NCBI RefSeq assembly: GCF_963676485.1
Contig: NZ_OY781114.1
Coordinates: forward strand, 2,575,001-2,639,000
Origin: an uncultured Cohaesibacter sp.
Lineage (GTDB): Bacteria; Pseudomonadota; Alphaproteobacteria; Rhizobiales; Cohaesibacteraceae
Length of the DNA stretch: 64,000 nt
Direction: 5' to 3'
Part shown: one piece after another, positions 12,171-56,665 of the stretch
Layout of the letters: every line of letters starts with the position of its first letter
Position numbering within the stretch: the stretch's first letter is position 1
Position numbers and translations under genes: made by a program
The notes under the pieces: generated by a model
What the model was told of the DNA's origin: nothing
Seen by the model: the letters and a program-made list of their open reading frames with translations, nothing else
Database searches by the model: none

Positions 12171-12215
12171 ATTTTTAAATAAAATCAAATGTTTGAATTT
12201 GATTTGGATATCGAG

Positions 12216-12800: not shown

Positions 12801-12834
12801 GGGTGTCTTGCCCTGAGATAAAACAAGAGTTTAA

Positions 12835-12868
12835 AAAAGGGATGGCTGGTGCCACCCCTTTTGTGTTT
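12835..12868. terminator. Terminator between cpdR and lysA, usable on both strands
   Basis: AAAAGGGATGGC (12835-12846) folds with GCCACCCCTTTT (12851-12862) across TGGT, with one mismatch. T-runs lie on the right and A-runs on the left. Confidence 0.75.
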
Positions 12869-12918
12869 TTGGGCCTTTTGCATTTTCGGGCCGCTTATAT
12901 TCTCGGATTGTACGGCGA

Positions 12919-40557: not shown

Positions 40558-40573
40558 TGCTGGCTTGTTCCAA

Positions 40574-43500
40574 TTAATTTCTCTGCTTGGGCCAGATAAA
40601 ACGGAATGTGGTGCCCGGCTCTTTTGACGGGTCTGACAGGATCGTTAGCGTGCCGCCAATGGATTCAATGGCCTTTTTGACCAAGGCAAGCCCCATGCCG
40701 TTTCCGGGAACCTTGTCCTTGCGTTCGAGCTTTCTGAAAGGCAGCAAGATCTTGCCATGATGCTTGGGGTCAATACCGGGGCCATCGTCAGAGACAGAAA
40801 AGGCCCAGGCGTCGCCCAGATCCTCTTGCCAGACTTTTACAATGCCATGGTCTTTGTCGTGATATTTGATTGCGTTTTCAATCAGATTGCGCAGCACCAG
40901 TAGCAAGGGCGCTCGGAAGGTGTGAATGGTCTCGTGTGGTAGATCGGTTTCAAAGCGGATGGCGTCGCTGCCATCCACGATGTCGAATATGTCCTGCAAA
41001 CTGACGGTCAGATTGATTTCTTCGGCTTCCTGAACATTCGAACCGGCCTTGGAATAGTCGGAGAGATCGGCAATCAGGCTGCCCAAATGTGAAATCTGGT
41101 CTTTCAGTCGATCAATATGCTCCTTGATCTCGGTTTGGATATTATCACTCAGATCTTCCTCGATCCAGGTTGCCGTATGCTGGATGGCGCGCAGCGGTCC
41201 TGCCAGATCATGGCTGATGATATGGGTAAACTGATTGAGATTATCATTGATGAGCTTCAGTTCCTGATTTTGCGCTTCCAGTTCCTTTTCAGCTCGCACC
41301 CTGTCTGACACATCGGCCAGCACGGTGCGTGTCTGCTCGATGCCCCTGCCGTCTGCTACAATGATGGTAGACATTTCGACATCTATGATGTCGCCATCCT
41401 TCTTGACCATTTGGAACGGAACATTTTCGGCCTGCTTGCTCCTGTTCGTTTCGGGCAACACCACCTCACAGGCATATTGTCTGGAGGCCTCGGTCAAGAA
41501 GTCTTCCCAATGGTGGTCGATGACTTCCTCGCGTTCATAGCCCAGTGTTGTGAGCCATTCTTCATTGGCCTCAACGATGATGCCATCCTTGTTGAGGGAA
41601 TGCATGATGACCGGTGTTTCCATATAGAGTTGGCGGAACCGCTTTTCTTCTTCCATGAAGAGATTATTGAGCATTTCCAGCTTCTCTTGCTGATCCTGCC
41701 GAAACAGTTCATAGCCGATCCAGTCGGCAATGCGATCAACAATCGGCTGATAGTTTTCCAGATAGCTTTTGTTGATCGGGAACTTGGACGCGAAGAGAAT
41801 TGCTCCGTTCATCGCGCCATTGCTCATGAAGGGAGCGCCGATGACCGTTTGATAGCCTTGAGAATGGAATATGTCCGAGGTTCTGACAATGCAGTCGATG
41901 AAATCATCCCGATGAGGGGAGCCGTCATCAGAAGCCTTGCTATGCTGGCAAGACACGCAAGGGGTTGTGAAGGTTTGCCCGATCGAGAGCGCGCCCTTTT
42001 CAATCCCGATTAGGTTATCGATTTCTATCTGCTGATTTTCAAAGCTGATCTTTAGTGCCGCTGTCAGGCGCGAAACCTCTGATACGCGGGATAGAATCTG
42101 CTCGACCTTGTCGTTGAAGTCGAGGCCGGTATGGGCGGCTATGCGGTTGAATTCGCCAATCAGATTTTCCCGCTCGACAATCTCCGTCACATTATGCAGG
42201 ACTATCTGGATTTCAAAAATCGTTCCATGTTCGTCTCGCAGGATATTGAAGCGGGATTGCAGCCACTTTCTGGTCTTGTCCGCTTGTTCGAATTCCCATT
42301 CGAAAGAGACATCCTGTTCCGGATTTTCTATGGCATTGATCAGATCGTCTTTATGCGGTGCTTTTAAAAGACTCTTGAAAAGAATCCCTTTTGTCTGATC
42401 TGGTTCGAGGTTGAAAAAGGCACAAAAGGCACTGTTGGCATAGGTGATGGTTGTGTCGGGTTTGAAACGACAAATGAGATCGCTCTGTAGATCAACCAGA
42501 GCCTTGTAGAACTCGCGCTCCTGACGCACGCGCTCCTGAGCGCGCTTCAATTCGTCGACTTCGATCACAGTGATAACTGCGCCGGTCGTGGTGTCCTGTT
42601 CTGTCTTATAGGGTAGAATATTGAGCAGATAGACAATGCCGTCACATTCAACCTCTCTGGAATGCTCGGTGCTTCTGGAGATGGTTTGCAGTGTCTGTTC
42701 CAGCAAATCCGTGCTGTCGAAGCGACTGGTGACATGGCCAATCGGACGTCCGACATCGTGTGGCATAAGGTTGAATGCCTTGGTTGATGCTGGTGTGAAG
42801 CGCCGTATCCTTGCCTCCTCATCGAGGAAGACGGTTCCTATCTGCGTGCTCCGCAGCAGATTTTCCATGTCGTCCGTCAATTCTGTCAATTCGACAATCT
42901 TGCGCTGATGTTCGGCACTGACGGTATAGAGTTCTTCGTTGACCGAATGAAGCTCCTCATTCGTGCTCTGGAGTTCTTCGTTGGATGCGGTCAGCTCTTC
43001 GTTTGTGGCCTGTAGCTCCTCGTTGCTTGCTTCCAGCTCCTCAATGGTGGTCTGAAGACTTTCGCCTGTCGAGCGGAGTTCGTTTTCCAACTCCGCGATC
43101 CTGTTGGTGTAGATTTCCTCATTTTCCAGCTTTGGCGCATTGGGGTTTTTGATCGTGCTTTGGGAAGGAATTGCCTTTCTTTCTTCCAATGTAATCAGCA
43201 GGAAAATGTTGTGGCTTTCTACAGTCAGTATCCTGGTGACGCGGATGGTCACGCGGGTCGGATTGTCTTTGAGATCCTTTATCTGAATGGAGCGTTCGAA
43301 TTCCGGCTCATGACTGAGCGTCATGGCGCGTTCGACACCGTCTGTGATTGCGAGCCGGAGATCCTGCTGCACCAGATCCACGATGCGATTGCTGAAAATA
43401 CCTTTTCGCACCTGCAGGAACTTGTCTGCATTGCCAAAGACATGCATCAATTCGCCCTGCTCATTGACCAGAAATCCTGTTGGCGCGTAACGCTCAAGAA

Positions 43501-45253
43501 CCCTGTCATAGGCGTTATAGAGGGCTTGTCGGGCAAGGCTTTCCCTTTTGGCCACTGCGAGGTTGTGTGCGCGCGTGTCTCTTAGAGACAGCTCGTCCTC
43601 CATGCCCTCTCTGGAGCGAGATGTGGCTGGAAGCAGGAAGGCTGCATCCCGGATCTGGCTATTGCGTATTTTTTGAAAAATGCGCCATCTCTTGTCGATG
43701 GAATGGAACTCGTTGTCTAGATTGCCCACGGTCTCGCTTGATCCAAGAAACAGATAACCTTTATCCTTGAGGGCAAAATGGAAGAGTGACAGCACCTTGC
43801 GCTGTGCTAATTCATTAAAATAAATCAACAGATTGCGACAGGTTATGAGGTCGATTTTCGTGAAGGGTGGGTCTTTGAGCAGGTTCTGCGTCGAGAAGAC
43901 CACCTTGCGCCGGAGGCTCTTCTTCACCTGATAGCGGTTGTCGACATAATTGAAATAGTCTTCAAGGAGTGGCTCAGGGATATGAGCGACGCTCTCTGCG
44001 TTATAGCTGCCTTCCGCCGCAATGCCGAGCGACTTGAAATGGATGTCGGTTGCGAAAACTTTCAAATTGGGTGTGATGCCGTTGCGTTTGGCGATTTCGC
44101 TAACCAATATGGCAATGGAATAGGGCTCCTCACCGGTTGCGCAACCGGGCACCCAGATGCGGATTTGTCTTTCCTCTGACATATCTGCGACAAGCTTTGA
44201 GAGAACCTTCGTTTCGAGAGCTTCGAAGGCGCCTTTGTCCCTGAAGAATTCCGTGACACCGATCAGCAAGTCGCAATAAAGGGTGTCCATCTCGTCCTTG
44301 TCAAACAGCAGGCTCTCGCAATATTTATCAAGGCTGGGTTCGCGCTTGAGCAGAGCGCGGCGTTGGATCCTGCGATGGATTGTAGCATTCTTGTAGAACG
44401 TGAAATCCGTGCCATAAGACTTTTGCAAGATGCTCAGAATGCGGGCTTCAGGATTGTCTGCATCGATTGCTTCCGGCTCCGGGCGGGGGACTTTAGAGCC
44501 ACTGACCACTGCTTTGATGATTTCCGGCATGTCTTTGACGTCGGCCACATAGGCGGTGGGGATGGTGTCGATGACCTTGCGGGGCATGGAATCAAATTTT
44601 GCCGTGGAGGACTCTTGGGCAATGACGACGCCACCATTCTGGACGATTTGCAAGCTGCCCCTGGTGCCGTCAGATCCTGTCCCCGACAAGATAATCCCAA
44701 TGGCATGCTCGCCTTCTTCCTTGGCCAAAGAAGAGAAAAAGGCATCAATGGGCATGCTCAGCATATTGTTGTCTGGATAGGCCTTCGTAGACAGTTTGCC
44801 ATTTTCTATCGATAGTTCAGTTCTGGGGGGATTGAGATAGATGACATTGGGTTCGATCTCCATCTGATCTTCCGCATGTACAATGCGCATATGCGTGTGG
44901 CGTGCGATCAGCTGATCCATCATCGATTGGAAATTGGGGGAGAGGTGCTGAATGATAACAAATGCCACATTTGGCTTTGTGGGCAAGGCATCGAAAAACT
45001 GTTCTATGGGCTCCAGCCCGCCAGCGGATGCGCCGATTGCGACAACCCGGATCGTCCTGTTCGTTTCAGGTGCTTCAGGCGCTTCTGTCTCTGAGGCCTG
45101 ATGTTTGGTGTCCTCTGCTTGCGGACTGGCTACTTGCGCGGGTTTATCGTCTGCTGGCTGTGCAGAAGGAGCAGAGATATCTTGCTTGTCTGCCTTGCCA
45201 GCTTCTTGTGCCTTTGTCGCAGAAAGCTTTTTTGAATCAGTATCTTTACTCAT
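40574..45253 (-). CDS. CheB-CheR-PAS-GAF-histidine kinase multidomain protein
   Basis: The 1559-residue protein has no transmembrane segment. After a Glu/Ala-rich tail of about 65 residues comes a CheB methylesterase domain without a receiver (GASAGG Ser, QHLSP His, GTGSDGTRG Asp). A CheR methyltransferase follows (VPGCATGEEPYSIA, TCRNLLIYF). Next is a long coiled coil built of EELQATNEELxSxNEEL repeats, then PAS domains, a GAF domain with CVSCQHS, another PAS, and a kinase (HIISHDLAGPLRAI; NLIENAIKYHD; SDDGPGIDP; GNGMGLALV). CheB-CheR-PAS-kinase fusions are known; the reaction on their target is poorly understood. AAGGA precedes the ATG at 45253. It converges on the small receiver with 16 bases between. 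Confidence 0.93.
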   Translation of the reverse strand: MSKDTDSKKLSATKAQEAGKADKQDISAPSAQPADDKPAQVASPQAEDTKHQASETEAPEAPETNRTIRVVAIGASAGGLEPIEQFFDALPTKPNVAFVIIQHLSPNFQSMMDQLIARHTHMRIVHAEDQMEIEPNVIYLNPPRTELSIENGKLSTKAYPDNNMLSMPIDAFFSSLAKEEGEHAIGIILSGTGSDGTRGSLQIVQNGGVVIAQESSTAKFDSMPRKVIDTIPTAYVADVKDMPEIIKAVVSGSKVPRPEPEAIDADNPEARILSILQKSYGTDFTFYKNATIHRRIQRRALLKREPSLDKYCESLLFDKDEMDTLYCDLLIGVTEFFRDKGAFEALETKVLSKLVADMSEERQIRIWVPGCATGEEPYSIAILVSEIAKRNGITPNLKVFATDIHFKSLGIAAEGSYNAESVAHIPEPLLEDYFNYVDNRYQVKKSLRRKVVFSTQNLLKDPPFTKIDLITCRNLLIYFNELAQRKVLSLFHFALKDKGYLFLGSSETVGNLDNEFHSIDKRWRIFQKIRNSQIRDAAFLLPATSRSREGMEDELSLRDTRAHNLAVAKRESLARQALYNAYDRVLERYAPTGFLVNEQGELMHVFGNADKFLQVRKGIFSNRIVDLVQQDLRLAITDGVERAMTLSHEPEFERSIQIKDLKDNPTRVTIRVTRILTVESHNIFLLITLEERKAIPSQSTIKNPNAPKLENEEIYTNRIAELENELRSTGESLQTTIEELEASNEELQATNEELTASNEELQSTNEELHSVNEELYTVSAEHQRKIVELTELTDDMENLLRSTQIGTVFLDEEARIRRFTPASTKAFNLMPHDVGRPIGHVTSRFDSTDLLEQTLQTISRSTEHSREVECDGIVYLLNILPYKTEQDTTTGAVITVIEVDELKRAQERVRQEREFYKALVDLQSDLICRFKPDTTITYANSAFCAFFNLEPDQTKGILFKSLLKAPHKDDLINAIENPEQDVSFEWEFEQADKTRKWLQSRFNILRDEHGTIFEIQIVLHNVTEIVERENLIGEFNRIAAHTGLDFNDKVEQILSRVSEVSRLTAALKISFENQQIEIDNLIGIEKGALSIGQTFTTPCVSCQHSKASDDGSPHRDDFIDCIVRTSDIFHSQGYQTVIGAPFMSNGAMNGAILFASKFPINKSYLENYQPIVDRIADWIGYELFRQDQQEKLEMLNNLFMEEEKRFRQLYMETPVIMHSLNKDGIIVEANEEWLTTLGYEREEVIDHHWEDFLTEASRQYACEVVLPETNRSKQAENVPFQMVKKDGDIIDVEMSTIIVADGRGIEQTRTVLADVSDRVRAEKELEAQNQELKLINDNLNQFTHIISHDLAGPLRAIQHTATWIEEDLSDNIQTEIKEHIDRLKDQISHLGSLIADLSDYSKAGSNVQEAEEINLTVSLQDIFDIVDGSDAIRFETDLPHETIHTFRAPLLLVLRNLIENAIKYHDKDHGIVKVWQEDLGDAWAFSVSDDGPGIDPKHHGKILLPFRKLERKDKVPGNGMGLALVKKAIESIGGTLTILSDPSKEPGTTFRFIWPKQRN

Positions 45254-45724
45254 ATTCAATCCTTCCCCCAAGGAATGAAAACCAAGACCCGTGCTGTAAA
45301 TCCGTGTCTTGACCTGCTTTTCTGGAATTGATGCAAAAAGGCAGTTTTATCTAGGCATATCTGACGCTTAGGGAAAAGGTTAGCACTAAATTGACCATAG
45401 TTAAATATGCTTATGCATCTCATGGTTGCTTTATGGAGGATTTTTATTTTGCCAAGGTTGTATATTTTCTAAATAGGGAAGATCAGCTTCTTGAAATTCT
45501 CGGCCAATAGAGGCTGTTGGCATGGTCCATCGATAATCATTTTCGTTTTTCTATGCAGAATCCCTGGCAACTTTCTTTGGCAGGTGGAGGTCTCGCCAAA
45601 GGCGAGCCGTTCCTTGCGCTGCTAGCTGACAAGTGCTTGCCCCTTTGGGCCTTTCTGTATCTTGACGAAGGATGGCTTTGCCAACATCCTTGTGTGCTTG
45701 AGGGAAGCAAAGGGGGGGAGCTTT
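45254..45724. other. 471-base AT-rich divergent spacer
   Basis: It lies between the divergent CheB-CheR gene and the kinase-like gene at 45725. CTTTGGC and GCCAAAG can pair around 45575. A 97-codon frame at 45517-45810 is a shadow. No clear promoter is seen. Confidence 0.5.
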
Positions 45725-46414
45725 ATGACAGAGCAGGAAGAGGGCGATGCCTTTTCAACTGGGCAACGCATGGAGGCACGCTACGAGCTCAGTCGGCGGA
45801 TAGCCCATGATACGAAGGCACCTATCCGGCAAATTGCACAACTGACCGAGATCCTGGTGGCTGAAAATTCCGGCTCGCTTGATGAGGATGCACTTTCCAT
45901 CCTGAGCATGGTGCAAGACAAGGCCCGGCATCTGGGTGAGATGACACAAGCCGTGCGCGATTACACTGATGCCATGTGCAAGCCGCTTGCTGTTCAGAGG
46001 ATCGACTTCACAGTGCTCTTGAAGGCAGAAATAGAATCACTCCAATTCGAAAATATCCTTTTCAAATGTGAAAATCCGATCTTCGTGAACGCCGATCCCC
46101 AATTTTTACGGCGGGTTGTTCAACAGCTCTTGAACGTGGTTTCTATTGACCCTTCTGGACGTAAAACCGGAGACGTGACGATTGCCGTCCATGGTGCAGA
46201 GACTTCAGCCACCCATATCGCTTTGATATTCTCTCCCTGCAGCATTGATTTTACGGGGAAACTCCCTTTGACAGGGCTTGCGCAGTATAAGTCGGCAAAC
46301 CTCTTCGAACTTCTTTCTATTTCTGAGTGTAGTGAGATTTTGCTCCGGCATGGCTGGACAATCTACATGGAGAAGACCGATGCAGAGACGCTCGAAATGA
46401 ATATCTGTTTGTGA
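45725..46414 (+). CDS. Degenerate histidine-kinase-like protein
   Basis: The 229-residue soluble protein has a HisKA-like helix with RRIAHDTKAPIRQIAQL, the acceptor-type His followed by D-T-K-A-P. The ATPase half is badly reduced: the N-box reads VVQQLLNVVS without its Asn, and no DxGxG or GxGLG box follows. It may dimerise or accept phosphate but should not bind ATP normally. The ATG at 45725 follows GGGGGAG. It is 58 bases before another degenerate relative and probably shares its message. Confidence 0.75.
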   Translation: MTEQEEGDAFSTGQRMEARYELSRRIAHDTKAPIRQIAQLTEILVAENSGSLDEDALSILSMVQDKARHLGEMTQAVRDYTDAMCKPLAVQRIDFTVLLKAEIESLQFENILFKCENPIFVNADPQFLRRVVQQLLNVVSIDPSGRKTGDVTIAVHGAETSATHIALIFSPCSIDFTGKLPLTGLAQYKSANLFELLSISECSEILLRHGWTIYMEKTDAETLEMNICL

Positions 46415-46472
46415 TTTGCAGATTTTTATCTATCCTTTTCTGGACCGATATTCTGATCACGGGGGCTTTCAG

Positions 46473-47672
46473 ATGTGTGCGGCCTGGATGAACGATTCTC
46501 AGGGAATGGCGAGCGAACTCGAGCGGATATCTCAAGTCGCTGGAGAGGAGATTCATCTTTCTTGTCTTTTGCTGGATGATGATCCGATTGACAGACGCTA
46601 TGTGCATTGGTTGTTGCAACAGCTCGCGGGGTTCCGGTTTAATGTCACCTTTGCCGACAGCTTGAATGAGGCCAAGCGGCTTTGCTCGGAAAAACGCTTT
46701 GATCTTTATCTCTTCGATTACTGGATGGGGGAAGATTCCTCTGCTTCCCTTGTTTCTTTCTTGAGGGAAGAGGGGGACAATGCTGGAACGATTGTCGTCC
46801 TATCATCGCTGGACGATGCGTCCTTTCAGGATGTCAGCCTCAAGTCGGGCGCGGACATGTTTCTGGCCAAGCAGGAGCTTTCGGCCAAGACCCTTGAACG
46901 GATGCTGCGCAACATTGCCCAGATCGCATCCAATGCCCGCTTGCAATATCATCAGAAGCAGCTGGATGCAGACAAGATTGGCGGCTGGCTGAAGCATGTC
47001 AATGGCGGGCTTGATCAGTCCCACGGCTTTGCCGTTCTGGCTCTGGATGCGCTCAAGGCCGGGCGCGGGCAAGAGGCTGAACACCTGATTTCAGATGCGC
47101 TCGAGCAGATTGCCGCCTTGCGCAATGAAGTGTCCTATGTCGGTGTCGGCATGTCCATGCTGAACAAGGAGAGCGCACTCAATCTCAGGCCGTTTGACGT
47201 CAGCTCGATCTTGACCGAGGTGGTTGAGGACTGTCGCTTCGAGGCGGAACAATTCGGCAAGACGCTCAATTTCTGTGAGCATGTGTCGGATTCGATTGTC
47301 CTCAGTGATGAAGGGCTGCTCAAGGAGCTGTTGTTTGTCTTGCTACGCGGTGCCGTGCGCTATTCAGGCGAAAGGACCGATGTCGCTGTGAGCTACGAGC
47401 TTGGCCCTGAGGCTTTGGTTGTTTATATCTCCGAGTTCGGCTCGGCAGAGGATCATGGGTTGGATCTTCGCAAATTTGATGTTTCGGGCACCATCAGTCT
47501 GGCCTATCTGTTTGGAACAGAAAGGGCGGGCAGTCTTTTGGTGGCCGAACATATCCTGCAAATACTTGGCGGCGACTGGTCGGTTGGCTATGCGAACCGC
47601 AATCTTGAAATACGCTGCCGGATTCCTCTCAATGTAGACCTCTTGTCGGATGACAGCTCGGGCCAGCCATGA
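46473..47672 (+). CDS. REC protein with degenerate kinase module
   Basis: The 399-residue protein has an N-terminal receiver with LLDDDPIDR and the acceptor Asp in LYLFDYWMGEDS, closely like the receiver of the kinase at 38897. At the kinase position it has GGWLKHVNGGLDQSHG, so the HDLRTPLNAI stretch is lost. The ATPase has only a vague fold with no Asn box and no DNGPG. It looks like a receiver-driven scaffold. The ATG at 46473 has GGGGG eight bases before it. Confidence 0.78.
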   Translation: MCAAWMNDSQGMASELERISQVAGEEIHLSCLLLDDDPIDRRYVHWLLQQLAGFRFNVTFADSLNEAKRLCSEKRFDLYLFDYWMGEDSSASLVSFLREEGDNAGTIVVLSSLDDASFQDVSLKSGADMFLAKQELSAKTLERMLRNIAQIASNARLQYHQKQLDADKIGGWLKHVNGGLDQSHGFAVLALDALKAGRGQEAEHLISDALEQIAALRNEVSYVGVGMSMLNKESALNLRPFDVSSILTEVVEDCRFEAEQFGKTLNFCEHVSDSIVLSDEGLLKELLFVLLRGAVRYSGERTDVAVSYELGPEALVVYISEFGSAEDHGLDLRKFDVSGTISLAYLFGTERAGSLLVAEHILQILGGDWSVGYANRNLEIRCRIPLNVDLLSDDSSGQP

Positions 47673-47696
47673 TGCGCCAGCCCGAGTGGTAGAGGC

Positions 47697-49556
47697 CTAA
47701 TACTGCATCGAGCTCATGGACAGACTGTCCCAGATTTCCTTCACCGTATGCTGAAGATCCTTGCGGCGGTCTTCATAATGGGTGTGCAACAGGTGATGGG
47801 CTTTTTCCGAGTTGGGGGCTTCAAGGAAATCCCTGTAGAGAGCCTGAACCTGCAGATTCTTGTGCGACTGGCGCACATTGGTTTTGCGGTCGACATTATA
47901 AATGGTTTCCCGCCGCGCCATGGCGAGAGGCAGATAGGCCTTTTTGGAGCGCAAGGAGCCGCCGCCGTCGACGCAGCCTCCCGGACAGGCCATGACTTCT
48001 ATGAAATCATAATCGGCTTTGCCAGCACGGACCATTTCGACCAGCTTGCGCGTGTCGCCCAGCCCGTGCACCATGGCCACCTTGACCGAGCCGATCGGGC
48101 CGCCCAGATCGACCATTGCCTCACGCACGCCTTCAAAGCCACGCAACTGTGTGAGCTCTACCTTATCGAGTTCCTTGCCGTTGACTACCGAATAGATGGT
48201 CCGCACCGCCGCTTCCATGACACCGCCCGTGGTGCCGAAAATGGCTGCTGCTCCGGAATATTCACTCATGTAGGGATTGTCGAAGCTGGAGGGCTTGATG
48301 GTCTTGAGATCAATCCCCTCGCGCCGCAGAAGGCGAGCAAATTCGCGCGTGGTCAGCACCACGTCCGTATCCTGCTTGCCGGCTTCTCCCAATTGTGGGC
48401 GGGCTGCTTCGTCCTTCTTGGCGATGCAGGGCATGATGGAGATGACACGGATTGTTTCCGCCTCGATTTCCTGCTTTTCGGGCAGATAGGCTTTGGCGAT
48501 GGTAGAGAGCACCTGCTGGGGTGACTTGGTTGAAGACAGGAGCGGCAGGATATCGGGATAGTGGGTTTCTGCGAAATTGATCCATGCGGGACAGCAGGAG
48601 GTGAAGGTCGGCTTGCGGCCCTCCTTGAGGCGAGCGAGCAATTCGGTGCCTTCTTCCATGATGACAACGTCAGCGGCGAAATTGGTGTCGAGCACGATAT
48701 CGACGCCGATCTTGCGGCAAGCGGCAATCACCTGCCCCTCAACATTCGTGCCCGCAGGCATGCCGAACTCTTCCCCGAAGGCAACGCGCACGGCTGGAGC
48801 GAATTGGACCACCGTGGTGATAGCGGGATCGCAGATATAATCGAGCGCCTTGTCGATCTCGTCTCTCTCGCCCAGAGCGCCTGTGGGGCAGACCAGAACG
48901 CACTGGCCGCAGGAGACGCAGATATTGCTCATCGGGTCGTTGCCATCACGCAAGGCTACGACGCGGTCATTGCCGGTGCCTTCCATGACAAGGGCATCGA
49001 TGCCCTGATGATCGCGGCAAATGGCGACGCATCGTTGACAGCGGATGCAGCGGCGCATGTCACGTATCATGGATGTGGATGCTTCATCCACCGGACGGCT
49101 TTCAGCAAGATCCCGATCAAAGAAGCGGTTTTCCGAAAGGCCCACATATTGGGCGACATCCTGCAATTCGCAATCGCCATGGCGAATGCAGGTGGCGCAA
49201 TCCTGCAGATGGTCTGCCATGAGCAGCTCGACCTGGAGCTTCTGCATGTCCCGGGCTTTTTTGGACCGGGTCTGGACGGTCATGCCTTCTCGGACAGGGG
49301 TGTTGCAGGACGTGACGATCTGCGCGCCCTTGTGCTTTGAATGGGTAATCTCCACCACGCAGACACGGCATGTGCCCGGCGTGTGATCGATGTCATCCAG
49401 TTCGCACAAGGTGGGGATGTAGATATCATGGCGTCTTGCGCATGACAGGATGGTCTCGTTGGGAAAGGCCATGCATGGCTTGTTGTTGATTTCAAGCGAG
49501 ATGGTTGCTTCGGCGGGGTTGCGTCCGGCATGGCTGACAGGTTCAGTGATGCACAT
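47697..49556 (-). CDS. hydA: [FeFe]-hydrogenase catalytic subunit
   Basis: The 619-residue protein has all three H-cluster blocks: TSCCPAW (319-325, Cys321 the likely proton relay and Cys322 a ligand), MPCIAKKDE (Cys377, Lys380, Glu383) and EVMACPGGCVDGGG (Cys524, Cys528). FGTTGGVMEAA and the small-subunit-like tail with RQSHKNLQVQ and HHLLHTHYEDR are present. The accessory domain has a [2Fe-2S] site (C51, C63, C66, C84), a His-Cys3 site (H116, C120, C123, C129) and two ferredoxin clusters (C170-C180, C213-C223). This is an M3-type, group A enzyme. No signal peptide is present. It follows the electron-transfer subunit by three bases. It should interconvert H2 and protons with NAD(P)(H) through that partner. 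Confidence 0.96.
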   Translation of the reverse strand: MCITEPVSHAGRNPAEATISLEINNKPCMAFPNETILSCARRHDIYIPTLCELDDIDHTPGTCRVCVVEITHSKHKGAQIVTSCNTPVREGMTVQTRSKKARDMQKLQVELLMADHLQDCATCIRHGDCELQDVAQYVGLSENRFFDRDLAESRPVDEASTSMIRDMRRCIRCQRCVAICRDHQGIDALVMEGTGNDRVVALRDGNDPMSNICVSCGQCVLVCPTGALGERDEIDKALDYICDPAITTVVQFAPAVRVAFGEEFGMPAGTNVEGQVIAACRKIGVDIVLDTNFAADVVIMEEGTELLARLKEGRKPTFTSCCPAWINFAETHYPDILPLLSSTKSPQQVLSTIAKAYLPEKQEIEAETIRVISIMPCIAKKDEAARPQLGEAGKQDTDVVLTTREFARLLRREGIDLKTIKPSSFDNPYMSEYSGAAAIFGTTGGVMEAAVRTIYSVVNGKELDKVELTQLRGFEGVREAMVDLGGPIGSVKVAMVHGLGDTRKLVEMVRAGKADYDFIEVMACPGGCVDGGGSLRSKKAYLPLAMARRETIYNVDRKTNVRQSHKNLQVQALYRDFLEAPNSEKAHHLLHTHYEDRRKDLQHTVKEIWDSLSMSSMQY

Positions 49557-49559
49557 GGC

Positions 49560-51557
49560 TCAGGCCGCTCCTTCAGGGATGGAATGCTTGGTGATGACCG
49601 AATAGAGGCGATAGCAGCGCATGCAGCGCTGCGCCTCTGTGTAGGCGTCTTCCAGACTGATGGTCTGTTCCACCTCGCCGAACATCTTCTTGCGCAAGTC
49701 CGGATCAAGGGCGGGATTATGCACGCGGTAGCCGTTGCGTACCGGTGTTTCGACCGCGTCATTGGCAAGGAAGGCATTCTCGTTGATCAACTCCCTCATA
49801 CGGGAGCGCTTGAAGAAGCGCGGTGTGCCAAACTGGATCCAGTCGTCAATGCTGCGCGCCGCTTTCAGCCCTGCCGACATGGCATAGATGAGGGTGGAAG
49901 GGCCGGTGACGCAGTCGCCTCCAGCAAACACGCCGGGTCTGGATGTGGTCAGGGACTTGTCCGCCTCCACGCATTTCCATTTGTTGAAGTCGATGCCTTC
50001 CTCTGCGATGATTTCCTGACTTTCCACCTGCTGGCCAATGGCCGCGATAAAAGTCGTGCAGGGCATGACATGTTCCGTTCCGGGGATGGGGCGCACCTTG
50101 CGCCGTCCGCTTTCGTCCGGTTCGGTTTCTTCCATGTGTACCAGCTCAATGCCGGTGATCTTGCCATTTTCGCTGAGAATGCGGGTTGGTGTGCACAGGG
50201 TGTGGAAGTCGATATCTTCCCTTTCGGCTTCTTCCACCTCTTCGGTATCGGCAGGCATGGCGTCGCGGGTGCGGCGATAAATCAGGTGTGCATTGTCGGC
50301 CCCCAGACGCACAGCCGAGCGGACACAATCCATGGCAACATTGCCGCCACCGACCACCACCACGTCGCCCTTGAGCTGGAAGGTGTCTATGCCATCCACA
50401 TGATCATGGACTTTGAGCAGGAAATCGATGCCTGTGAAATAGCCCTCCCGAACCTTCTCTTCATTTTTGAGACCAAGCATCGTGCCTTCCTGACAGCCAA
50501 GCCCGAGGAACACGGCCTTGTAACCGCGCTGGAAGAGATCGTCGATGGTGAAGTCGGTCCCCAGTTGCTGGCCAAACAGGAACCGTCCACCCAGATCGAC
50601 AATGATGTCGGTTTCCATGGCAAGGGTATCCTTGGGCAGGCGATAATTGGGAATACCGATCTGGGCCATGCCACCTGCTTTGTCCTGCTTTTCAAATACA
50701 TCCACATGATAACCATGCAGCAGCAGATGATAGGCGCAGGAAATTCCTGCGGGCCCTGCTCCGACAACGGCGACTTTCATGCCGTCTGCGAGCGGCTTCT
50801 GGATCATTTCGCGGGTGAATTTAAGCGCATGCGGGCCCTTTTGCTGGTCGGCGACGAAGCGCTTGAGGGTCTTGATGCCCACCGCTTCATCGACGAATTT
50901 GCGCCGACAGGCCTGTTCGCAATATCGCACGCAGACACGACCGCATGTGGCGGCCATGGGATATTTCTGCAAAAGGACACCCAGCGAGTTTTCCGGCTTT
51001 CCATCGCGGATATAATCAATATAGCGCGGCACATTGACCTTGGACGGGCAGGCCTCAATGCAGGGGGCGGTCATGTAGGCCATGCCGTGCTGAGCGCGGA
51101 TTGGCATATGATCGGCCACTTCCTTTTCGATCTGCTCACGGAAGTGATGGATGACCTCCAGAAGGGCGATGCAACAGGTTTGTCCCAGCCCACAAAGGGA
51201 GGTTTCTTTCATCTGGTTGGCGAGCATTTCGATGTCGTCGAAATCGAGCGGCGTATCAAGGCCGCGTCGCATCTTGTCCAGCGCGTCCCGTATCAGCACA
51301 GTGCCCATGCGGCAGGGCGTGCAGGCGCCGCAGGATTGTTCTGCCGCCTTGTTGATGTAATGGAAAAGCCCTTCGACCAGACTGACGGTTTCATCAAAGA
51401 CGAAAAAACCCCTGTCTGCGAAAAAGGCGCGGACAGCGTTTCCTTCATCGAATTCATCGAAATTTTGCAAGGCTGCGAGCGGGGTGTCATGGCCGGGCAA
51501 ATTGCGCCGTGCATCATGAACAACCCCATCCCAAACGCCATACACCACTTGTGTCAC
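49560..51557 (-). CDS. NuoF-tail/GltD-like electron-transfer subunit of the hydrogenase
   Basis: The 665-residue protein joins two parts. Residues about 1-165 match only the C-terminal [4Fe-4S] tail of NuoF (SCGACTPCRMG, ETSLCGLGQTC); the FMN and NADH domain of NuoF is missing. The rest is a GltD-type flavoprotein: Cys clusters CIEACPSKVNV and CGRVCVRYCEQACRR, FAD site VVGAGPAGISCAY, NAD(P) site VVVGGGNVAMDCV and a late FAGGDCVTGPST. It should pass electrons between NAD(P)H and HydA. The GTG at 51557 is preferred over a TTG at 51623. The stop is three bases before hydA. Confidence 0.9.
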   Translation of the reverse strand: MTQVVYGVWDGVVHDARRNLPGHDTPLAALQNFDEFDEGNAVRAFFADRGFFVFDETVSLVEGLFHYINKAAEQSCGACTPCRMGTVLIRDALDKMRRGLDTPLDFDDIEMLANQMKETSLCGLGQTCCIALLEVIHHFREQIEKEVADHMPIRAQHGMAYMTAPCIEACPSKVNVPRYIDYIRDGKPENSLGVLLQKYPMAATCGRVCVRYCEQACRRKFVDEAVGIKTLKRFVADQQKGPHALKFTREMIQKPLADGMKVAVVGAGPAGISCAYHLLLHGYHVDVFEKQDKAGGMAQIGIPNYRLPKDTLAMETDIIVDLGGRFLFGQQLGTDFTIDDLFQRGYKAVFLGLGCQEGTMLGLKNEEKVREGYFTGIDFLLKVHDHVDGIDTFQLKGDVVVVGGGNVAMDCVRSAVRLGADNAHLIYRRTRDAMPADTEEVEEAEREDIDFHTLCTPTRILSENGKITGIELVHMEETEPDESGRRKVRPIPGTEHVMPCTTFIAAIGQQVESQEIIAEEGIDFNKWKCVEADKSLTTSRPGVFAGGDCVTGPSTLIYAMSAGLKAARSIDDWIQFGTPRFFKRSRMRELINENAFLANDAVETPVRNGYRVHNPALDPDLRKKMFGEVEQTISLEDAYTEAQRCMRCYRLYSVITKHSIPEGAA

Positions 51558-52107
51558 AGTGACCCCCGTCGCGCAGAATAACCAACATAAGCAGGAAGGT
51601 GCCGAAGCTTGGCTGCAGAGCATAAAGGCAAAGCGTTCCGCAGCTATTTTGGTGCCTTCATTATAGATCCACTCTTTGGACTAAGTTATCTTGTTGCTTG
51701 CGATTATGTTCGGCCAGAAATGGGTGAAAACCTTGCGGTAAATCAAAGTGGTTCATAGCAACGAATGGCCAATAAGGATGTATGTTTTTAATTCACCTTG
51801 TGAAATATTTTATGGCTCTTTGTTTCGGTATCTCATTTGTTTGAAAAGGTGTTTAGATTGAGTGTATTACGGAAAATATGCTTTTTTCTTCAATATGTTG
51901 TTTTGTCGCGGTAATAATACAGAGGGTTGCTCTATTTTGAGCGGGATAGATATTTTTATACTTTCGTATTATGGGTAAGAAAGATGTGTTGAATGTGATC
52001 CTTTGGGATTGGTTTTGGCAATTATTTGTCGAATTCTATTCTTCTCTTCGAACCTTTCTGGTTTTCTATTGGGTGGAACAGACAAGGGTTAAAAGGGAGG
52101 TTGGGAG
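51558..52107. promoter_or_regulatory. 550-base AT-rich divergent control region
   Basis: The region separates the hydrogenase operon from the ABC importer. It is clearly more AT-rich than the flanking genes. It contains a FixK/FNR-like box and a TTCAC-CTT-GTGAA palindrome (51792-51804). An 87-codon frame at 51971-52234 is not credible. Confidence 0.6.
51733..51746. promoter_or_regulatory. FixK/FNR-like anaerobox upstream of the hydrogenase operon
   Basis: TTGCGGTAAATCAA fits the FixK2-type TTG(A/C)-N6-(T/G)CAA pattern, and its right half is the FNR half-site ATCAA. It lies about 176 bases before the GTG start. Confidence 0.5.
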
Positions 52108-53121
52108 ATGCTTTTACAATCCGACAGACAGCTTGATCGGCGCTCTTTGCTCAAATGGGCTGGATGGCTGGCCGCTGCGGGGACGCCCTTTCTTCCTGGG
52201 TGCCTTTCGGCCCGTGCCGCTTCGGGCGGCCTGACTCTTTGGGGCATTCCGGCTTCCCCTTCTGCAGTCTTTGCCCGGGCGGTGGCTTCGGGTGCTTTGG
52301 ATCACATCGCTCCGGATATGCGGTTTGCTGTTTGGAAGAGCACTGACCAGATGCGGGCGGGCATTGTTTCTGGTGATTTCAAGCTGTTTGCGACCTCCAC
52401 CTATGCTGCCGCCAATTTCTTCAATCGCGGAGCAGGCACGGTGATGCTCAATGTGGTGACTTGGGGTGTCCTCTATGTAATGGCGCGCGAGGAGGGCATA
52501 ACCAAAATCGAGGATCTGGCGGGCAAGCGGGTTTTATTGTCGAACAAGAATGAGGCGCCCGACCTGTTGTTCCGCCTTGTGCTCACATGGGCGGGAATGG
52601 ATCCGGACAAGGATGTCATTCTGGACTATGTCGGATCGCCGGGAGAAGCGGTGCCGCTTTATCTTGCAGGGCGCGGCGATGTGGCTCTGCTGCATGAACC
52701 AGCCTCCACGGCGGCGTTGTTTCGCGCCAGCAAGGCCGGGGTGCCGCTCTATCGCGCCATCGATATCACGGAGGTTTATGGCAACCATACAGGGCGGGGG
52801 CCGCGTATTCCGCAAGTGGGGTTGGCAGTCAATCCGGCCTTTCTTGAGGAACAGCCTGAGATTGTTGCTGCCGTTCATCAGGCCTGTGTCGATGCGGGAG
52901 AATGGACAAGGGCCAACTGGGGGGCAGCAGGGAAGCTGGCGGCGCACTCGCTGCCCTTGCCTGCGCCGGTGATCGCCCAGTCGCTACCCTATGTGCATCT
53001 GGATGTACAATCGGCCAAAGAGGCGCGGGCTGATATCGACCTCTATTTCGAGCATCTCATGAGCCTTGATCCGGGCATCATTGGTGGCAAGATGCCTTCA
53101 TCGGGCTTTTACTGGGGGTAA
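52108..53121 (+). CDS. ABC substrate-binding lipoprotein, NitT/TauT-like
   Basis: The 337-residue protein has a Tat-like start (DRRSLLKWAG) and an LPGC-type lipobox, so it is probably a Tat-exported lipoprotein. The mature part has the NitT/TauT fold with the repeated pattern of a solute-binding protein (AGRGDVALLHEPASTAA). The ligand is unknown. It is followed by a permease and an ATPase in an operon. GGGAGGTTGGGAG lies just before the ATG. Confidence 0.83.
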   Translation: MLLQSDRQLDRRSLLKWAGWLAAAGTPFLPGCLSARAASGGLTLWGIPASPSAVFARAVASGALDHIAPDMRFAVWKSTDQMRAGIVSGDFKLFATSTYAAANFFNRGAGTVMLNVVTWGVLYVMAREEGITKIEDLAGKRVLLSNKNEAPDLLFRLVLTWAGMDPDKDVILDYVGSPGEAVPLYLAGRGDVALLHEPASTAALFRASKAGVPLYRAIDITEVYGNHTGRGPRIPQVGLAVNPAFLEEQPEIVAAVHQACVDAGEWTRANWGAAGKLAAHSLPLPAPVIAQSLPYVHLDVQSAKEARADIDLYFEHLMSLDPGIIGGKMPSSGFYWG

Positions 53122-53124
53122 CGG

Positions 53125-53919
53125 GTGAGCAATCGCTACCAGAAACGCGCCAGACAGTTAAGACGCAGCCTGTTGTTTACTGCAGGGGTGTTGGTGATGC
53201 TGGCACTTTGGCAGATTGGGCATGACGCCTATGGTTCGCTCGTTCTGCCCGGAGTGGGCGAAACCTTTGTCATGCTTGGGCGGATGATCGGATCTGGTGA
53301 AGTGGTCGCAGCCCTTAAGGCCACGGCCTTCAATGCCCTTGCGGGCTGGAGCATCAGCGTGGTGATGGGCGTGATTGCCGGAGGAATAGCCGGGCGGTTC
53401 GAGATTGTGCGTTTTTTGCTTCAGCCGGTTTCCATCATTCTCATTGGCATTCCGGCGATTGCCTGGGTGGTGCTGGCGCTTTTGTGGTTCGGCGGTCGAT
53501 GGGCCGTGGTCTTTACGGTCGCGGTGGCTACTGCGCCGATGATTTTTGCCGCTGCAGTGCAGGCGGTGCGCAGCCTTGACGGAGATCTGGCGCGTATGGC
53601 GCGCGCCTTCAAGACCCCGCCGGGGGCGATGGTGCGTGACGTTTATGCGCCACACATGCTGGCCTATCTCTATCCGGCACTGGCCACAACGCTGGCCATG
53701 TCCTGGAAGGTCTCTATCATGGCCGAGTTGCTGTCCGGTTCTGGTGGCATTGGTGATGGCATTGCAGCGGCAAGGGCGCGGGTGGATACGGCGCAATTGC
53801 TGGCTTGGGTGGTCGTGGTTGTGATCATCCTGCTTGTGCTCGACCAGCTGCTGCTGAGCCTTGTGCGCGAGCGTATGCATGTTTGGCGCAGTCAGGAGGA
53901 AGGGGGCAGGCATGGATGA
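53125..53919 (+). CDS. ABC permease, NitT/TauT-like
   Basis: The 264-residue protein has about six transmembrane segments. The EAA-type loop is ARMARAFKTPPGAMVRDVYAP. GIPAIAWVVLALLWFGG and a late SGGIGDGIAAARARVDT are like those of TauC and SsuC. A GTG start at 53125 lies three bases after the binding-protein stop. Its end overlaps the ATPase start (ATGGATGA), so it is coupled. Confidence 0.9.
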   Translation: MSNRYQKRARQLRRSLLFTAGVLVMLALWQIGHDAYGSLVLPGVGETFVMLGRMIGSGEVVAALKATAFNALAGWSISVVMGVIAGGIAGRFEIVRFLLQPVSIILIGIPAIAWVVLALLWFGGRWAVVFTVAVATAPMIFAAAVQAVRSLDGDLARMARAFKTPPGAMVRDVYAPHMLAYLYPALATTLAMSWKVSIMAELLSGSGGIGDGIAAARARVDTAQLLAWVVVVVIILLVLDQLLLSLVRERMHVWRSQEEGGRHG

Positions 53920-54670
53920 TCGTCTGCTCACGCTTGAAGCTGTCGACTTTGCTTATGACAAAGAGCCGGTGCTGTCGGGCATTGCTCTTCGCGTTGGCAA
54001 GCGGCAAGTGGTGGCGCTGATGGGGCCTTCGGGCTGCGGCAAGACAACGCTGCTTTCCTTGATCCTGAGGGAGCTGCATCCCGATGCGGGCCGCATCGAG
54101 TGGGCTGCAGAGCGCCTTTCTGTGATGTTCCAGGATCCGCTGTTGCTGCCGTGGCGCACCGTCCTTGACAATGTCGCGTTCGCCCTGAAGGGGCAGATCG
54201 CATCACGCGAGAAGCGGGAAGAAAAGGCATCAGCGATGCTGAAGGCGGTTGGGTTGCCTGAAGAGCATTTTCGGCAGTTCCCCCACCAGCTTTCCGGAGG
54301 CATGCGCCAGCGGGTGTCGTTGGCGCGGGCGCTTGTTGTCGAGCCGGATATGCTGCTGCTTGATGAACCGTTCCATGGGCTCGATTTCAATCTGGTGCAA
54401 CAGATGCAGGCCCTGCTGCGCAGCCATGTAAATGAGCGCGGGATGGGGCTTTTGATGGTGACCCATGATGCGCGCCATGCCGCTGCGATGGCAGACGAGA
54501 TTCTCGTTCTGTCTTCAGGGCCTGCATGCGTCATGGCCCGCTTTGATGCGCGTTTCTATGATGCTAAGGGAGAGAGCGCTGTTCCCTCCCATCTGCTGTT
54601 GGCCGATGAGATAGAGCAAGCCTTCATGGGGCCTATCAAAGGATGCTCCGTGCGCCGCCAAAAAGCATGA
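53912..54670 (+). CDS. ABC ATPase, NitT/TauT-like
   Basis: The 252-residue protein has Walker A GPSGCGKTT, Q-loop VMFQDPLLLPWRT, signature LSGGMRQRVSLARAL, Walker B LLLDEPFHGLDF and the switch His in VTHDARHA. The VFQDPxLLPWRT stretch is typical of nitrate and taurine type importers. The ATG at 53912 overlaps the permease by eight bases. Its 3' end overlaps the convergent TSUP gene by 35 bases. Confidence 0.93.
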   Translation: MDDRLLTLEAVDFAYDKEPVLSGIALRVGKRQVVALMGPSGCGKTTLLSLILRELHPDAGRIEWAAERLSVMFQDPLLLPWRTVLDNVAFALKGQIASREKREEKASAMLKAVGLPEEHFRQFPHQLSGGMRQRVSLARALVVEPDMLLLDEPFHGLDFNLVQQMQALLRSHVNERGMGLLMVTHDARHAAAMADEILVLSSGPACVMARFDARFYDAKGESAVPSHLLLADEIEQAFMGPIKGCSVRRQKA

Positions 54671-55403
54671 GCAGCGCCAACGCCGTGATGATCACTCTGA
54701 AGATCTTGCGAAACAGAGTCTCATCCATGACATGGAGCAGCTTGCTGCCGGCGCGGGTGCCCAGATAGCCAGACAGGATCATGGCGCCGATAAGACCCAG
54801 CCAGTTTGTGAAGGCAAAGCCTAAAAAGCCGAACGCGATGATTTTCAGGGCATGAGAGAGCGTCATGGCTGCTGCATGGGTTGCGACGACCCCTTGCCGG
54901 TTGGCAATCTTACCTGAAATAAGCCCGGCGATGAGCGGGCCTGTGGCTCCCACAAACATACCGGCCAGAGAGGCGATGAATGCCCCAACGCCAACGGCAC
55001 TGTCTGCATTGGTGACCAGTCGCGGAATGGGGAGCCAGGTGATCGCCAGAATGAACAGGGCAAGAATGATCTGGAGCAGGGCTTCGGGCAAGGCGATGAC
55101 AATCTGTGACCCCACAAGAGTGCCAGCGATCGTTCCCAGCAGGATAAGACCGATCAGACGCCAATTGATATGCTCGCGCAGGTGCCATGCGCGTCCGGCG
55201 TTGGACCCCAGTTGCACGGTGCCGTGTAAGGGAATGAGTGTGGTAACAGGAATGACCATGCCCAGAATGGCCAGTAAGGTCACGCCGCCGCCGATGCCGA
55301 AGGCTGCTGTAAAAGCTGAGGTAAAGAAGCTCGCGATAATGAGCCCCCAGAGCGTGACTTCGCTAAGCTGGGTATGGGCAAAGAGGGGTAGGGTTTCCAG
55401 CAA
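54636..55403 (-). CDS. TSUP (TauE/SafE)-family permease
   Basis: The protein has eight or so transmembrane segments with the TSUP pattern (FGIGGGVTLLAILGMV; VGVGAFIASLAGMFVGATGPL). The family exports sulfite or organosulfonates. No ATG exists near the start; a TTG at 55403 is used and a TTG at 55451 is possible. It lies downstream of a terminator for the M20 gene. Confidence 0.85.
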   Translation of the reverse strand: MLETLPLFAHTQLSEVTLWGLIIASFFTSAFTAAFGIGGGVTLLAILGMVIPVTTLIPLHGTVQLGSNAGRAWHLREHINWRLIGLILLGTIAGTLVGSQIVIALPEALLQIILALFILAITWLPIPRLVTNADSAVGVGAFIASLAGMFVGATGPLIAGLISGKIANRQGVVATHAAAMTLSHALKIIAFGFLGFAFTNWLGLIGAMILSGYLGTRAGSKLLHVMDETLFRKIFRVIITALALLMLFGGARSIL

Positions 55404-55453
55404 AGGTCTTCTATCTTTCTTCTGCAATGGAGGGTAGGGCCTGCGGGGCAACG

Positions 55454-55484
55454 AAAAAGAGCCGGGCTTGGTGCTCCGGCTCTT
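55454..55484 (-). terminator. Terminator after the M20 amidohydrolase
   Basis: AAGAGCCGG and CCGGCTCTT (55457-55465 with 55476-55484) form a perfect 9-bp stem, and on the minus strand TTTTT follows. Confidence 0.85.
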
Positions 55485-55498
55485 GCAACTGGCTTGCT

Positions 55499-56665
55499 TT
55501 AAGCTGGCAATAACTCTTCGACCAGTTTGGCCCAGTAGGACGCGCCGACGGGAATGACTTCATCGTTGAAATCATAGTCCGGGTGATGAAGAGGAGCTGA
55601 ATCACCATTGCCGAGAAAAATGAAGGCTCCCGGACGTTCTTGCAGCATGAAGGAAAAGTCTTCAGCACCCATGGTTGCAACGAAATTGTCATTTACCTTG
55701 TCCGCACCGGCGATGGACTTGGCCACCTTGACGGCGGTCTCCGTCTGGGCTGGATGGTTGACCGTGACCGGATAATCGCGCTTGTAATCGAGGGTTGCCT
55801 TGGCACCATAAACGGCCGCCGTGCCTTCGATGATTTCCTTGAGGCGCTTTTCGGCCATGGTGCGAACTTCCGGATCAAGCGTGCGCACGGTGCCTTCGAT
55901 CAGGCCTGTTTGCGGGATTACATTGTCGGTGAAGCCTGCCTCAACATGACAAAGGGAAATGACAATCGATTTCTGCGGATCGACCGTGCGGCTGGCGATG
56001 GTCTGGATGGCCTGAATGATGGCGGAAATGACCACCACAGTGTCGATGCATTCATGAGGTTTGGCTGCATGGCCCCCCTTGCCTTCGACAGTGATGTAAA
56101 TGCGGTCGGCTGAAGCCATCAGGGCGCCCGGGCAAATTTCGAATGCACCAGCCGGAATGCCCGGCCAATTGTGCATGCCGTAAACCTGCTCGATATTCCA
56201 GCGATCCATCAGGCCGTCTTCCACCATGGCGCGTGCGCCGCCGCCGCCTTCTTCTGCAGGCTGGAAGATGAGAACCACTTCGCCATCGAAATTGCGCGTT
56301 TCCTGCAGATATTTGGCCGCAGCCAGCAGCATGGAGGTGTGACCATCATGGCCACAGGCATGCATTTTGCCTTCGACCTTGGAGGCGTATGGTTTGCCGG
56401 TCGTTTCTTGTAGTGGCAAGGCATCCATATCGGCGCGTAGGCCGATGGTGCGCCCTGACTTGTTGCTCTTGCCCTGAATAACGGCAACAACGCCGGATTG
56501 GCCGACGCCGGACGTGATGTTGGAAATGCCGTAGGATTTCAACTCGGCTATGACGCGGGTTGTCGTTTTGTGGACGTCATATTGCAGTTCCGGATATTCA
56601 TGAAGGTCCTGACGTACTTTCTTGATCTGGTTCTGAAATTCGGCAATTCGGTTGATAATAGGCAT
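55499..56665 (-). CDS. M20-family amidohydrolase (hippurate hydrolase-like)
   Basis: The 388-residue metallohydrolase has RADMDALP, KMHACGHDGHTSML, EEGGGGARAMVEDG and a late GAEDFSFML. These hold the metal ligands and catalytic Glu of the M20D class, whose members cleave N-acyl amino acids. The substrate is unknown. Length is normal and a good terminator follows. Confidence 0.9.
   Translation of the reverse strand: MPIINRIAEFQNQIKKVRQDLHEYPELQYDVHKTTTRVIAELKSYGISNITSGVGQSGVVAVIQGKSNKSGRTIGLRADMDALPLQETTGKPYASKVEGKMHACGHDGHTSMLLAAAKYLQETRNFDGEVVLIFQPAEEGGGGARAMVEDGLMDRWNIEQVYGMHNWPGIPAGAFEICPGALMASADRIYITVEGKGGHAAKPHECIDTVVVISAIIQAIQTIASRTVDPQKSIVISLCHVEAGFTDNVIPQTGLIEGTVRTLDPEVRTMAEKRLKEIIEGTAAVYGAKATLDYKRDYPVTVNHPAQTETAVKVAKSIAGADKVNDNFVATMGAEDFSFMLQERPGAFIFLGNGDSAPLHHPDYDFNDEVIPVGASYWAKLVEELLPA

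Follow-up and report, generated by a model that had tools for sequence, protein, structure and literature searches.

A conserved [FeFe]-hydrogenase with a GltD-like partner in Cohaesibacter and other Alphaproteobacteria without matches to the maturases HydE, HydF, and HydG

We analysed a 64-kb stretch of an uncultured Cohaesibacter genome (C1:2575001-2639000 of a 5.08-Mb assembly in 2 contigs, 96.7% complete; hereafter the window), which encodes the group A [FeFe]-hydrogenase subunit HydA together with a GltD-like flavoprotein. HydA keeps its cluster ligands and its catalytic site is under strong purifying selection, but the maturases HydE, HydF, and HydG have no match above cut-off anywhere in the genome, and the same combination recurs in two clades of HydA. 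To our knowledge, HydEFG are held to be obligatory for assembly of the H-cluster, itself the most active H2 catalyst that we know of. We tentatively propose that hydA-gltD encodes a working soluble NAD(P)-linked [FeFe]-hydrogenase which would obtain its diiron centre by a route other than HydEFG. This appears to be the most likely single account of the data, ahead of an apo-enzyme engaged in electron transfer.

HydA scores 518.3 bits against TIGR02512 (FeFe_hydrog_A, cut-off 405.95), which places it in group A by sequence family, and 300.7 and 75.7 bits against the Pfam domains Fe_hyd_lg_C and Fe_hyd_SSU. Starting at the N-terminus, the protein has a [2Fe-2S] site, a His-Cys3 [4Fe-4S] site, two further [4Fe-4S] sites, the H-domain, and the SSU domain. 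The H-domain motifs TSCCPAW, MPCIAKKDE, and MACPGGCVDGGG give intact L1, L2, and L3 with four Cys. An earlier note, made from the DNA sequence, had stated that all ligands of the H-cluster and of the accessory clusters are retained, and our motif check found every one of them. The proton-relay Cys, Glu, Glu, and Ser and the residues of the [2Fe] pocket are all present in the window protein, Arg 309 included. The best hidden Markov model (HMM) was NF040763, with 718.9 bits, and the closest PDB sequences were the HydA1 chains 7q4v and 8a6t, which we take to come from A. woodii and T. kivui. The protein thus resembles HydA of the group A6 or HydABC type in its N-terminal cluster set and its best matches. 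It differs from it in staying below the NF040763 cut-off of 765, which leaves it outside the NADH-dependent A6 group, and in having a GltD-like partner, where the partner of A6 proteins is presumably a HydB/HydC pair.

The partner combines a NADH_4Fe-4S domain of the NuoF C-terminal type, a Fer4_20 domain, and an FAD/NAD(P) Pyr_redox_2 domain, i.e. it is GltD-like with an additional N-terminal iron-sulphur domain. It carries the GltD-like motif GGGNVAMD...YRRTRDAMPA, and its Cys 98, 101, 104, 144, 188, 192, 227, 231, 235, 239, 667, and 670 (counted in a 687-residue numbering) are invariant in 76 rows. It scores 60.5 bits against TIGR01959, under the cut-off of 558.65, and its nearest PDB sequences are 9n5u (NfnA), 9bov, and 8oh5. 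These features are those of an intact electron-entry module. The gltD gene lies upstream of hydA with 3 bases between them. Hence, the two-gene operon with a GltD-like NAD(P) flavoprotein that had been described earlier stands, but with the partner upstream of hydA and with a NuoF-type domain added to it.

This arrangement bears on the subtype. In the accessible part of its description, HydDB lists group A2 as 'glutamate synthase-linked (putative)', gives its role as undetermined, and asks for a GltA/GltD-type gene immediately downstream of hydA, with NuoF excluded (PMC5037454). The window system is like A2 in joining a group A HydA to a GltD-type flavoprotein, which makes the earlier suggestion of A2 plausible. 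It is unlike A2, as far as that part of the source describes it, in that gltD precedes hydA and its product is extended by a NuoF-type 4Fe-4S domain, so that the rule does not strictly apply, and in the absence of maturases from the genome.

The earlier note had also reported that no hydE, hydF, or hydG gene lies in the 64 kb. We can extend this absence to the whole genome, where HydG and HydE gave no match at E 0.001, HydF_dimer was unmatched, and the full-length HydF model gave 10 matches, all under its cut-off and in the GTPase part only. With none of the three families above cut-off, the maturase set that would accompany a functional hydrogenase was not found, and these whole-genome profile searches led us to reject the presence of HydEFG elsewhere in the genome. 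The operon can be called complete-looking for the anatomy of hydA-gltD, but not for maturation, since these genes are missing from this genome and from 12 other HydA-bearing Cohaesibacter. HydG was searched in 59 genomes, of which 7 without HydA and 3 repeats (G061, G062, G067) were set aside; it is above cut-off in 19 of the 49 distinct HydA-bearing genomes that remain and not in the other 30. HydE and HydF_dimer were searched in 45 genomes, i.e. the 30 without HydG, 11 of the 19 with HydG, and 4 without HydA. HydE above cut-off and HydF_dimer were each found in 0/30, 11/11, and 0/4 of them, respectively. In the 41 HydA genomes tested for the three families, these are jointly present in 11 and jointly absent in 30, with no exception. 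Two genomes with rows in the maturase-less clades, L030 and L061, were searched for HydG alone and are negative, and the genome of the clade A row L028 lies outside the maturase searches. Among 58 further HydA genomes, HydG is above cut-off in 35, split across two contigs in G101, and absent from 22; we do not rely on these counts because many are metagenome-assembled genomes (MAGs).

Could the maturases be present but missed, because of an assembly gap or because HydE, HydF, and HydG have diverged beyond the profiles? Some of the genomes are not closed, and neither the profiles nor the loose first look of the searches is without limits. However, the absence is repeated in 30 genomes, and assembly gaps are not its cause because six of them (G001, G003, G004, G012, G013, G014) are single contigs at least 98% complete. 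Furthermore, the same searches recover HydE, HydF, and HydG in every one of the 11 maturase-bearing relatives. The one weak HydE/HydG-like pair that was examined, in G012 (L124 649-3319), was rejected as a candidate, since it consists of adjacent CofH and CofG, radical-SAM genes of F420 precursor synthesis. Weak HydE/HydG-like hits with a similar layout occur in most other Cohaesibacter searched, HydA-negative G006 and G011 too, and there are none in the window genome (G000). This explanation is largely refuted, and we regard it as very improbable.

A tree of HydA was built from 93 rows by a quick method, with SH-aLRT support only and a midpoint root; L016, L001, L013, and L093 were removed beforehand, and clostridial HydA and the HydA of Rhodospirillum rubrum are not among the rows. 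The maturase-less rows, which represent 28 of the 30 maturase-less genomes, fall in two supported clades; the genomes without a row, G002 (a near-duplicate, removed) and G016, were assigned to clade A by genus. Clade A (27 rows, support 100) comprises Cohaesibacter, Rhodovulum, Rhodobacter sp. Har01, Rhodopseudomonas, Tropicimonas, Aliiruegeria, Rhodobium, and one MAG. Clade B (7 rows, support 100) comprises Rhodoplanes, Blastochloris, a Xanthobacteraceae isolate, and Rhodovulum sp. PH10. The sister of clade A is a Pleomorphomonas/Oryzibacter group (support 97). The maturase-less label needs two changes on the tree, and at least two are forced by the starred branches; which way the change went hinges on the root, and this was placed by midpoint only. 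The comparison with clostridial and deltaproteobacterial proteins that the earlier note had proposed is answered in part: the window HydA lies among alphaproteobacterial HydA, apart from six Desulfovibrionaceae rows, in a tree without clostridial HydA.

To characterize selection on HydA, we mapped 18 residues to the H-cluster pocket and proton path of CpI through the best PDB comparison, with CpI numbering and residue roles as we assume them to be. Seventeen of the 18 do not vary across the 28 clade A rows and the 7 clade B rows, some of which are near-duplicates; the same holds for the 34 rows (31 of them different) that remain without L028. Among the 17 are the relay Cys, both Glu, and the Ser, plus the Lys and Met near [2Fe]. 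Arg 309 is the sole mapped residue that varies, and it varies in maturase-bearing rows as well. With 172 of 364 H-domain columns invariant in these clades, the chance of 17/17 is about 2e-6. Among searched genomes, the median ratio of H-domain to F-domain divergence is 0.79 in clade A (12 rows) and 0.80 in clade B (7 rows), next to 0.78 (14 rows) and 0.74 (8 rows) in two HydG-bearing sets. The H-domain of maturase-less HydA is constrained as strongly as in maturase-bearing relatives. The median dN/dS of the H-domain is 0.029 in 21 pairs from 7 close Cohaesibacter, where that of the F-domain is 0.052, and 0.081 over 13 clade A rows (71 unsaturated of 78 pairs). A residue fixed in both clades yet absent from HydG-bearing rows was not found; clade A alone has one, outside the H-domain. 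Relaxed residues in the diiron pocket or proton path, expected of an apo-HydA or of a protein like Nar1 (which we take as the comparison for an apo-HydA without [2Fe]), were not seen in these rows. By these patterns, HydA of the maturase-less clades is not a decaying relic. The earlier note had held that absence of hydEFG would argue against an active H-cluster; the absence is confirmed, but strong purifying selection on the catalytic site keeps it from amounting to a simple verdict of inactivity.

In the window, an ATP-binding cassette (ABC) importer is encoded divergently from gltD-hydA (Table 1). Neighbourhoods were compared by BLAST of the window proteins; clustering of longest open reading frames was distorted by antisense frames in G+C-rich loci. 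The importer accompanies hydA in every one of the 16 clade A loci with long flanks, where it lies upstream and divergent, downstream and co-directional, or upstream and co-directional. It is also near hydA in 9 Pleomorphomonas loci and in L050, and L067 has the substrate-binding protein (SBP) and the permease. It is not in the hydA stretch of five Rhodoplanes-type loci (L054, L058, L060, L061, L079). In three Rhodoplanes-type loci, long conserved frames divergent from gltD have no Pfam match at E 1e-6.

We surveyed 127 genomes for orthologues of the SBP, defined as at least 400 bits to a 20-sequence profile. This threshold was picked after a score gap had been seen (416-586 vs at most 369), and in some genomes the first look left part of the candidates unscored. 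Of the 46 HydA genomes lacking HydG, 29 have an orthologue (clade A 22/25, clade B 6/7, others 1/14, the last being G499, whose match contains a stop). Among the 39 HydA genomes with HydG, the 8 that have one are all Pleomorphomonas, and none of the 42 HydA-less genomes, some of them incomplete, has one. Among the 37 positive genomes, 18 supplied the profile and are positive by construction; the 19 out-of-sample ones are G001-G004, G007, G012, G014, G070, G098, G081, G084, G085, G094, G496, and five Pleomorphomonas. Three Cohaesibacter (G008, G013, G016) and a Blastochloris (G082) have HydA without maturases and without an orthologue, which shows that the importer is not an absolute requirement. 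In these Cohaesibacter, other genes adjoin the locus: a DctM gene of the tripartite ATP-independent periplasmic (TRAP) type next to gltD-hydA in G008 and G013, and, in G016, a gene with a phosphotransacetylase domain that adjoins hydA (L178, L179, L180). Distances between SBPs and between HydA proteins correlate (Spearman 0.93 in 28 loci, 0.66 in 17 clade A loci), as would also follow from co-inheritance alone.

The twin-Arg signal for twin-arginine translocation (Tat) is invariant in 20 aligned SBP sequences, which have no invariant Cys or His. An AlphaFold2 model of the SBP (mean pLDDT 89) matches the folds of 3hn0, SsuA, PqqT with pyrroloquinoline quinone (PQQ), Thi5, and a pyrimidine-precursor-binding protein, at 12-20% identity among the matches listed; this fold class covers sulfonate-, PQQ-, and thiamin-precursor-binding proteins. 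Many bacteria that do not make PQQ take it up, according to the accessible part of PMC12124388. Judging by the model, the SBP would belong to the same fold class as the redox-cofactor binder PqqT and in this resemble uptake of the PqqT/PqqU type. Unlike in that type, a TonB receptor was seen beside the importer only in L050, where it is found with NnrS (11788-12993) next to gltD-hydA; as none was seen in another HydA locus, we rejected the TonB receptor as a general partner of the importer. A riboswitch that might name the ligand of the importer was looked for, but 46000-56000 gave no Rfam match with E up to 1. Paralogous SBP-permease-ATPase clusters (L172, L176, L177, L187, L188) occur in G010, which has HydA, and in four Cohaesibacter genomes without HydA. 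They come with NnrS genes (two in the HydA-negative genomes), a TonB receptor that scores to a copper-receptor model under its cut-off, and a second SBP. Their families were read by profile in L172 only and by BLAST in the others.

In the reading that we favour, mainly because the diiron pocket is conserved, electrons would pass from NAD(P)H to the FAD of the GltD part, to the two Fer4_20 clusters and the NuoF-type [4Fe-4S], and then through the [2Fe-2S]/[4Fe-4S] chain of HydA to the H-cluster. Under anoxia, to which regulation of the operon would respond, proton reduction could serve as a redox valve; alternatively, the reaction could run in reverse. The [2Fe] subcluster, or a close equivalent, would reach HydA without HydEFG, a route that we propose because HydA seems to be kept functional while HydE, HydF, and HydG are absent. 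Several points weigh against this. Our caution stems mainly from alternative maturation having no known example: we know of no [FeFe]-hydrogenase that makes its [2Fe] site without HydEFG, and a candidate replacement enzyme was not found in this analysis. The NAD(P) linkage is suggested by domain homology only. Clade B alone has 8 fixed residues absent from HydG-bearing rows, 4 of them in the H-domain; one of these 4 is the Ser for Thr that its seven rows (L050, L054, L056, L058, L060, L061, L079) have at position 319, just ahead of the active-site Cys (L1 SSCCP vs TSCCP). Conservation indicates that the cavity is in use and does not by itself prove H2 chemistry. Finally, in the accessible part of an earlier study, maturase-less hydrogenases of the R. 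rubrum type were judged probably inactive or of another role (PMC4967309).

That judgement supports an apo-hydrogenase, whose H-cluster would consist of the [4Fe-4S] half alone; the role of HydA would be that of a redox sensor, or of an electron-transfer or diaphorase subunit for the GltD flavoprotein. The GltD complex would then be an NAD(P)H:acceptor oxidoreductase, and loss of HydEFG would reflect lost H2 chemistry, in line with the unmatched maturases and with the full conservation of the electron-entry module. We find this account possible but doubtful: diiron-pocket and proton-path residues show no drift in clades A and B, and the H-domain constraint equals that of maturase-bearing relatives. 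Alternatively, the cavity might hold another ligand or substrate, e.g. a diatomic gas or a different iron complex, and HydA-GltD would then be the reductase of a non-proton substrate. NnrS near the importer in some relatives hints at nitric oxide chemistry: it adjoins hydA in L050 and the orthologous importer in the Rhodoplanes-type L181 and L183, and a hybrid FNR/NnrR-like palindrome precedes 11 of 19 clade A operons. However, no pocket change is common to both clades and BLAST finds no NnrS in the clade A stretches around hydA, and we deem this option unlikely.

A special case of the working hydrogenase is that the importer scavenges what other bacteria release, either the diiron centre itself or a precursor, just as PQQ, in many bacteria that do not produce it, is taken up to serve the enzymes that need it. 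It would fit the distribution of the SBP in the two clades relative to HydG-bearing and HydA-less genomes, the linkage to hydA in every clade A locus with long flanks, the correlated distances (which co-inheritance would equally give), the fold neighbours among PQQ- and thiamin-precursor-binding proteins, and the TonB receptor of L050. A synthetic [2Fe] complex is also said to load apo-HydA spontaneously. Yet HydA persists with neither maturases nor orthologue in the four genomes named above, 13 of the 14 HydG-less HydA genomes outside the two clades lack the orthologue, and Pleomorphomonas has the importer plus maturases. The SBP has no invariant Cys or His in a fold that binds sulfonates too, the importer is not in the hydA stretch of the five Rhodoplanes-type loci, and the profile was built from linked loci, with close to half of the positives given by construction. 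We consider scavenging improbable. A little less credible still is its fullest form, in which purple and marine Alphaproteobacteria of two lineages would be diiron-cluster auxotrophs that gave up HydEFG and load a working HydA through this Tat-type importer, with an organometallic cofactor or precursor entering by it and a TonB receptor assisting in one relative.

Hydrogenases without maturases are not new to this class. In the accessible part of Degli Esposti et al. 2016 (PMC4967309), a few Alphaproteobacteria such as R. rubrum are said to have such hydrogenases 'but not the maturases', and maturases are reported in Pleomorphomonas and others. As far as that part goes, our case is like R. rubrum in pairing an alphaproteobacterial [FeFe]-hydrogenase with a genome without maturases, and goes beyond it with two clades, 30 genomes tested for three families, selection tests, and an associated importer; the Cohaesibacter case seems a new form of a known puzzle. 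Pleomorphomonas, in the sister group of clade A, has a HydA 70-71% identical to that of the window, the same GltD partner, and the same linked importer, but unlike the window genome it has HydE, HydF, and HydG. The accessible parts of PMC6288185, PMC7460606, PMC10711303, and PMC8924675 held nothing further on maturase-less bacterial HydA. In the open-licence literature, mostly consulted without full texts, we found no account of Cohaesibacter HydA or of a hydA-linked importer.

Table 1. Features of the hydA region, in window coordinates.
Feature	Position	Strand	Basis or remark
hydA, group A [FeFe]-hydrogenase catalytic subunit, 619 aa	47697..49556	-	profiles and motifs
gltD-like flavoprotein, 665 aa from GTG start (frame open to 51623)	49560..51557	-	domains
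TTGATTTACCGCAA, CRP/FNR-family-like palindrome, 176-189 bp upstream of gltD	51733..51746	-	pattern match
Substrate-binding protein (SBP) of ABC importer, NMT1/SsuA/phosphonate-bd type	52108..53121	+	divergent from gltD-hydA
ABC importer permease (BPD_transp_1)	53125..53919	+	profile
ABC importer ATPase (ABC_tran), likely start near 53912	53861..54670	+	profile

The palindrome upstream of gltD looks like a hybrid Fnr/NnrR-like site. Within 1 mismatch it precedes 11/19 clade A operons, and it is found in 0/7 clade B and 0/5 maturase-bearing upstream regions; the pattern was derived from the same regions in which it was counted, and the shuffle control is partly circular. Plain FNR sites show no excess across the window. 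On the other side of hydA, 38897-47672 encodes a cluster of histidine kinases and response regulators, including a 1565-aa CheB-CheR-PAS-kinase, and three of these genes have counterparts flanking hydA in Cohaesibacter marisflavi (L022) and C. haloalkalitolerans (L023).

These two species also have the closest named relatives of HydA (95% and 91% identity, respectively, among the best 80 of 575). HydA is above cut-off in 13 of 18 Cohaesibacter genomes, and in none of 2 other genomes of the family or 41 of the order. The statement of the earlier note that [FeFe]-hydrogenases are uncommon in Alphaproteobacteria agrees with our sample, where 19 of 385 genomes, the window genome counted, have HydA above cut-off. 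Five further Alphaproteobacteria (G137, G188, G189, G300, G282), 96-100% complete, have HydA above cut-off with HydG unmatched at E 1e-20. MAGs labelled Eisenbacteria, Verrucomicrobium, and Acidobacteria (L044, L046, L047, L062) carry HydA 66-70% identical to that of the window, which reflects either transfer or binning error. None of 15 plasmid-borne records checked reaches 60% identity.

Many cultured bacteria without all three maturases thus keep a well-conserved HydA, and have either another way to obtain the H-cluster or a second selected function for the protein. In the latter case, if true, an [FeFe]-hydrogenase fold with an unchanged active site would serve another selected role. An importer-fed auxotrophy, if true, would be the first natural trade of H-cluster parts between cells. 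Both another supply route and another function would be relevant to the hydrogenases without maturases that are discussed for anaerobic eukaryotes.

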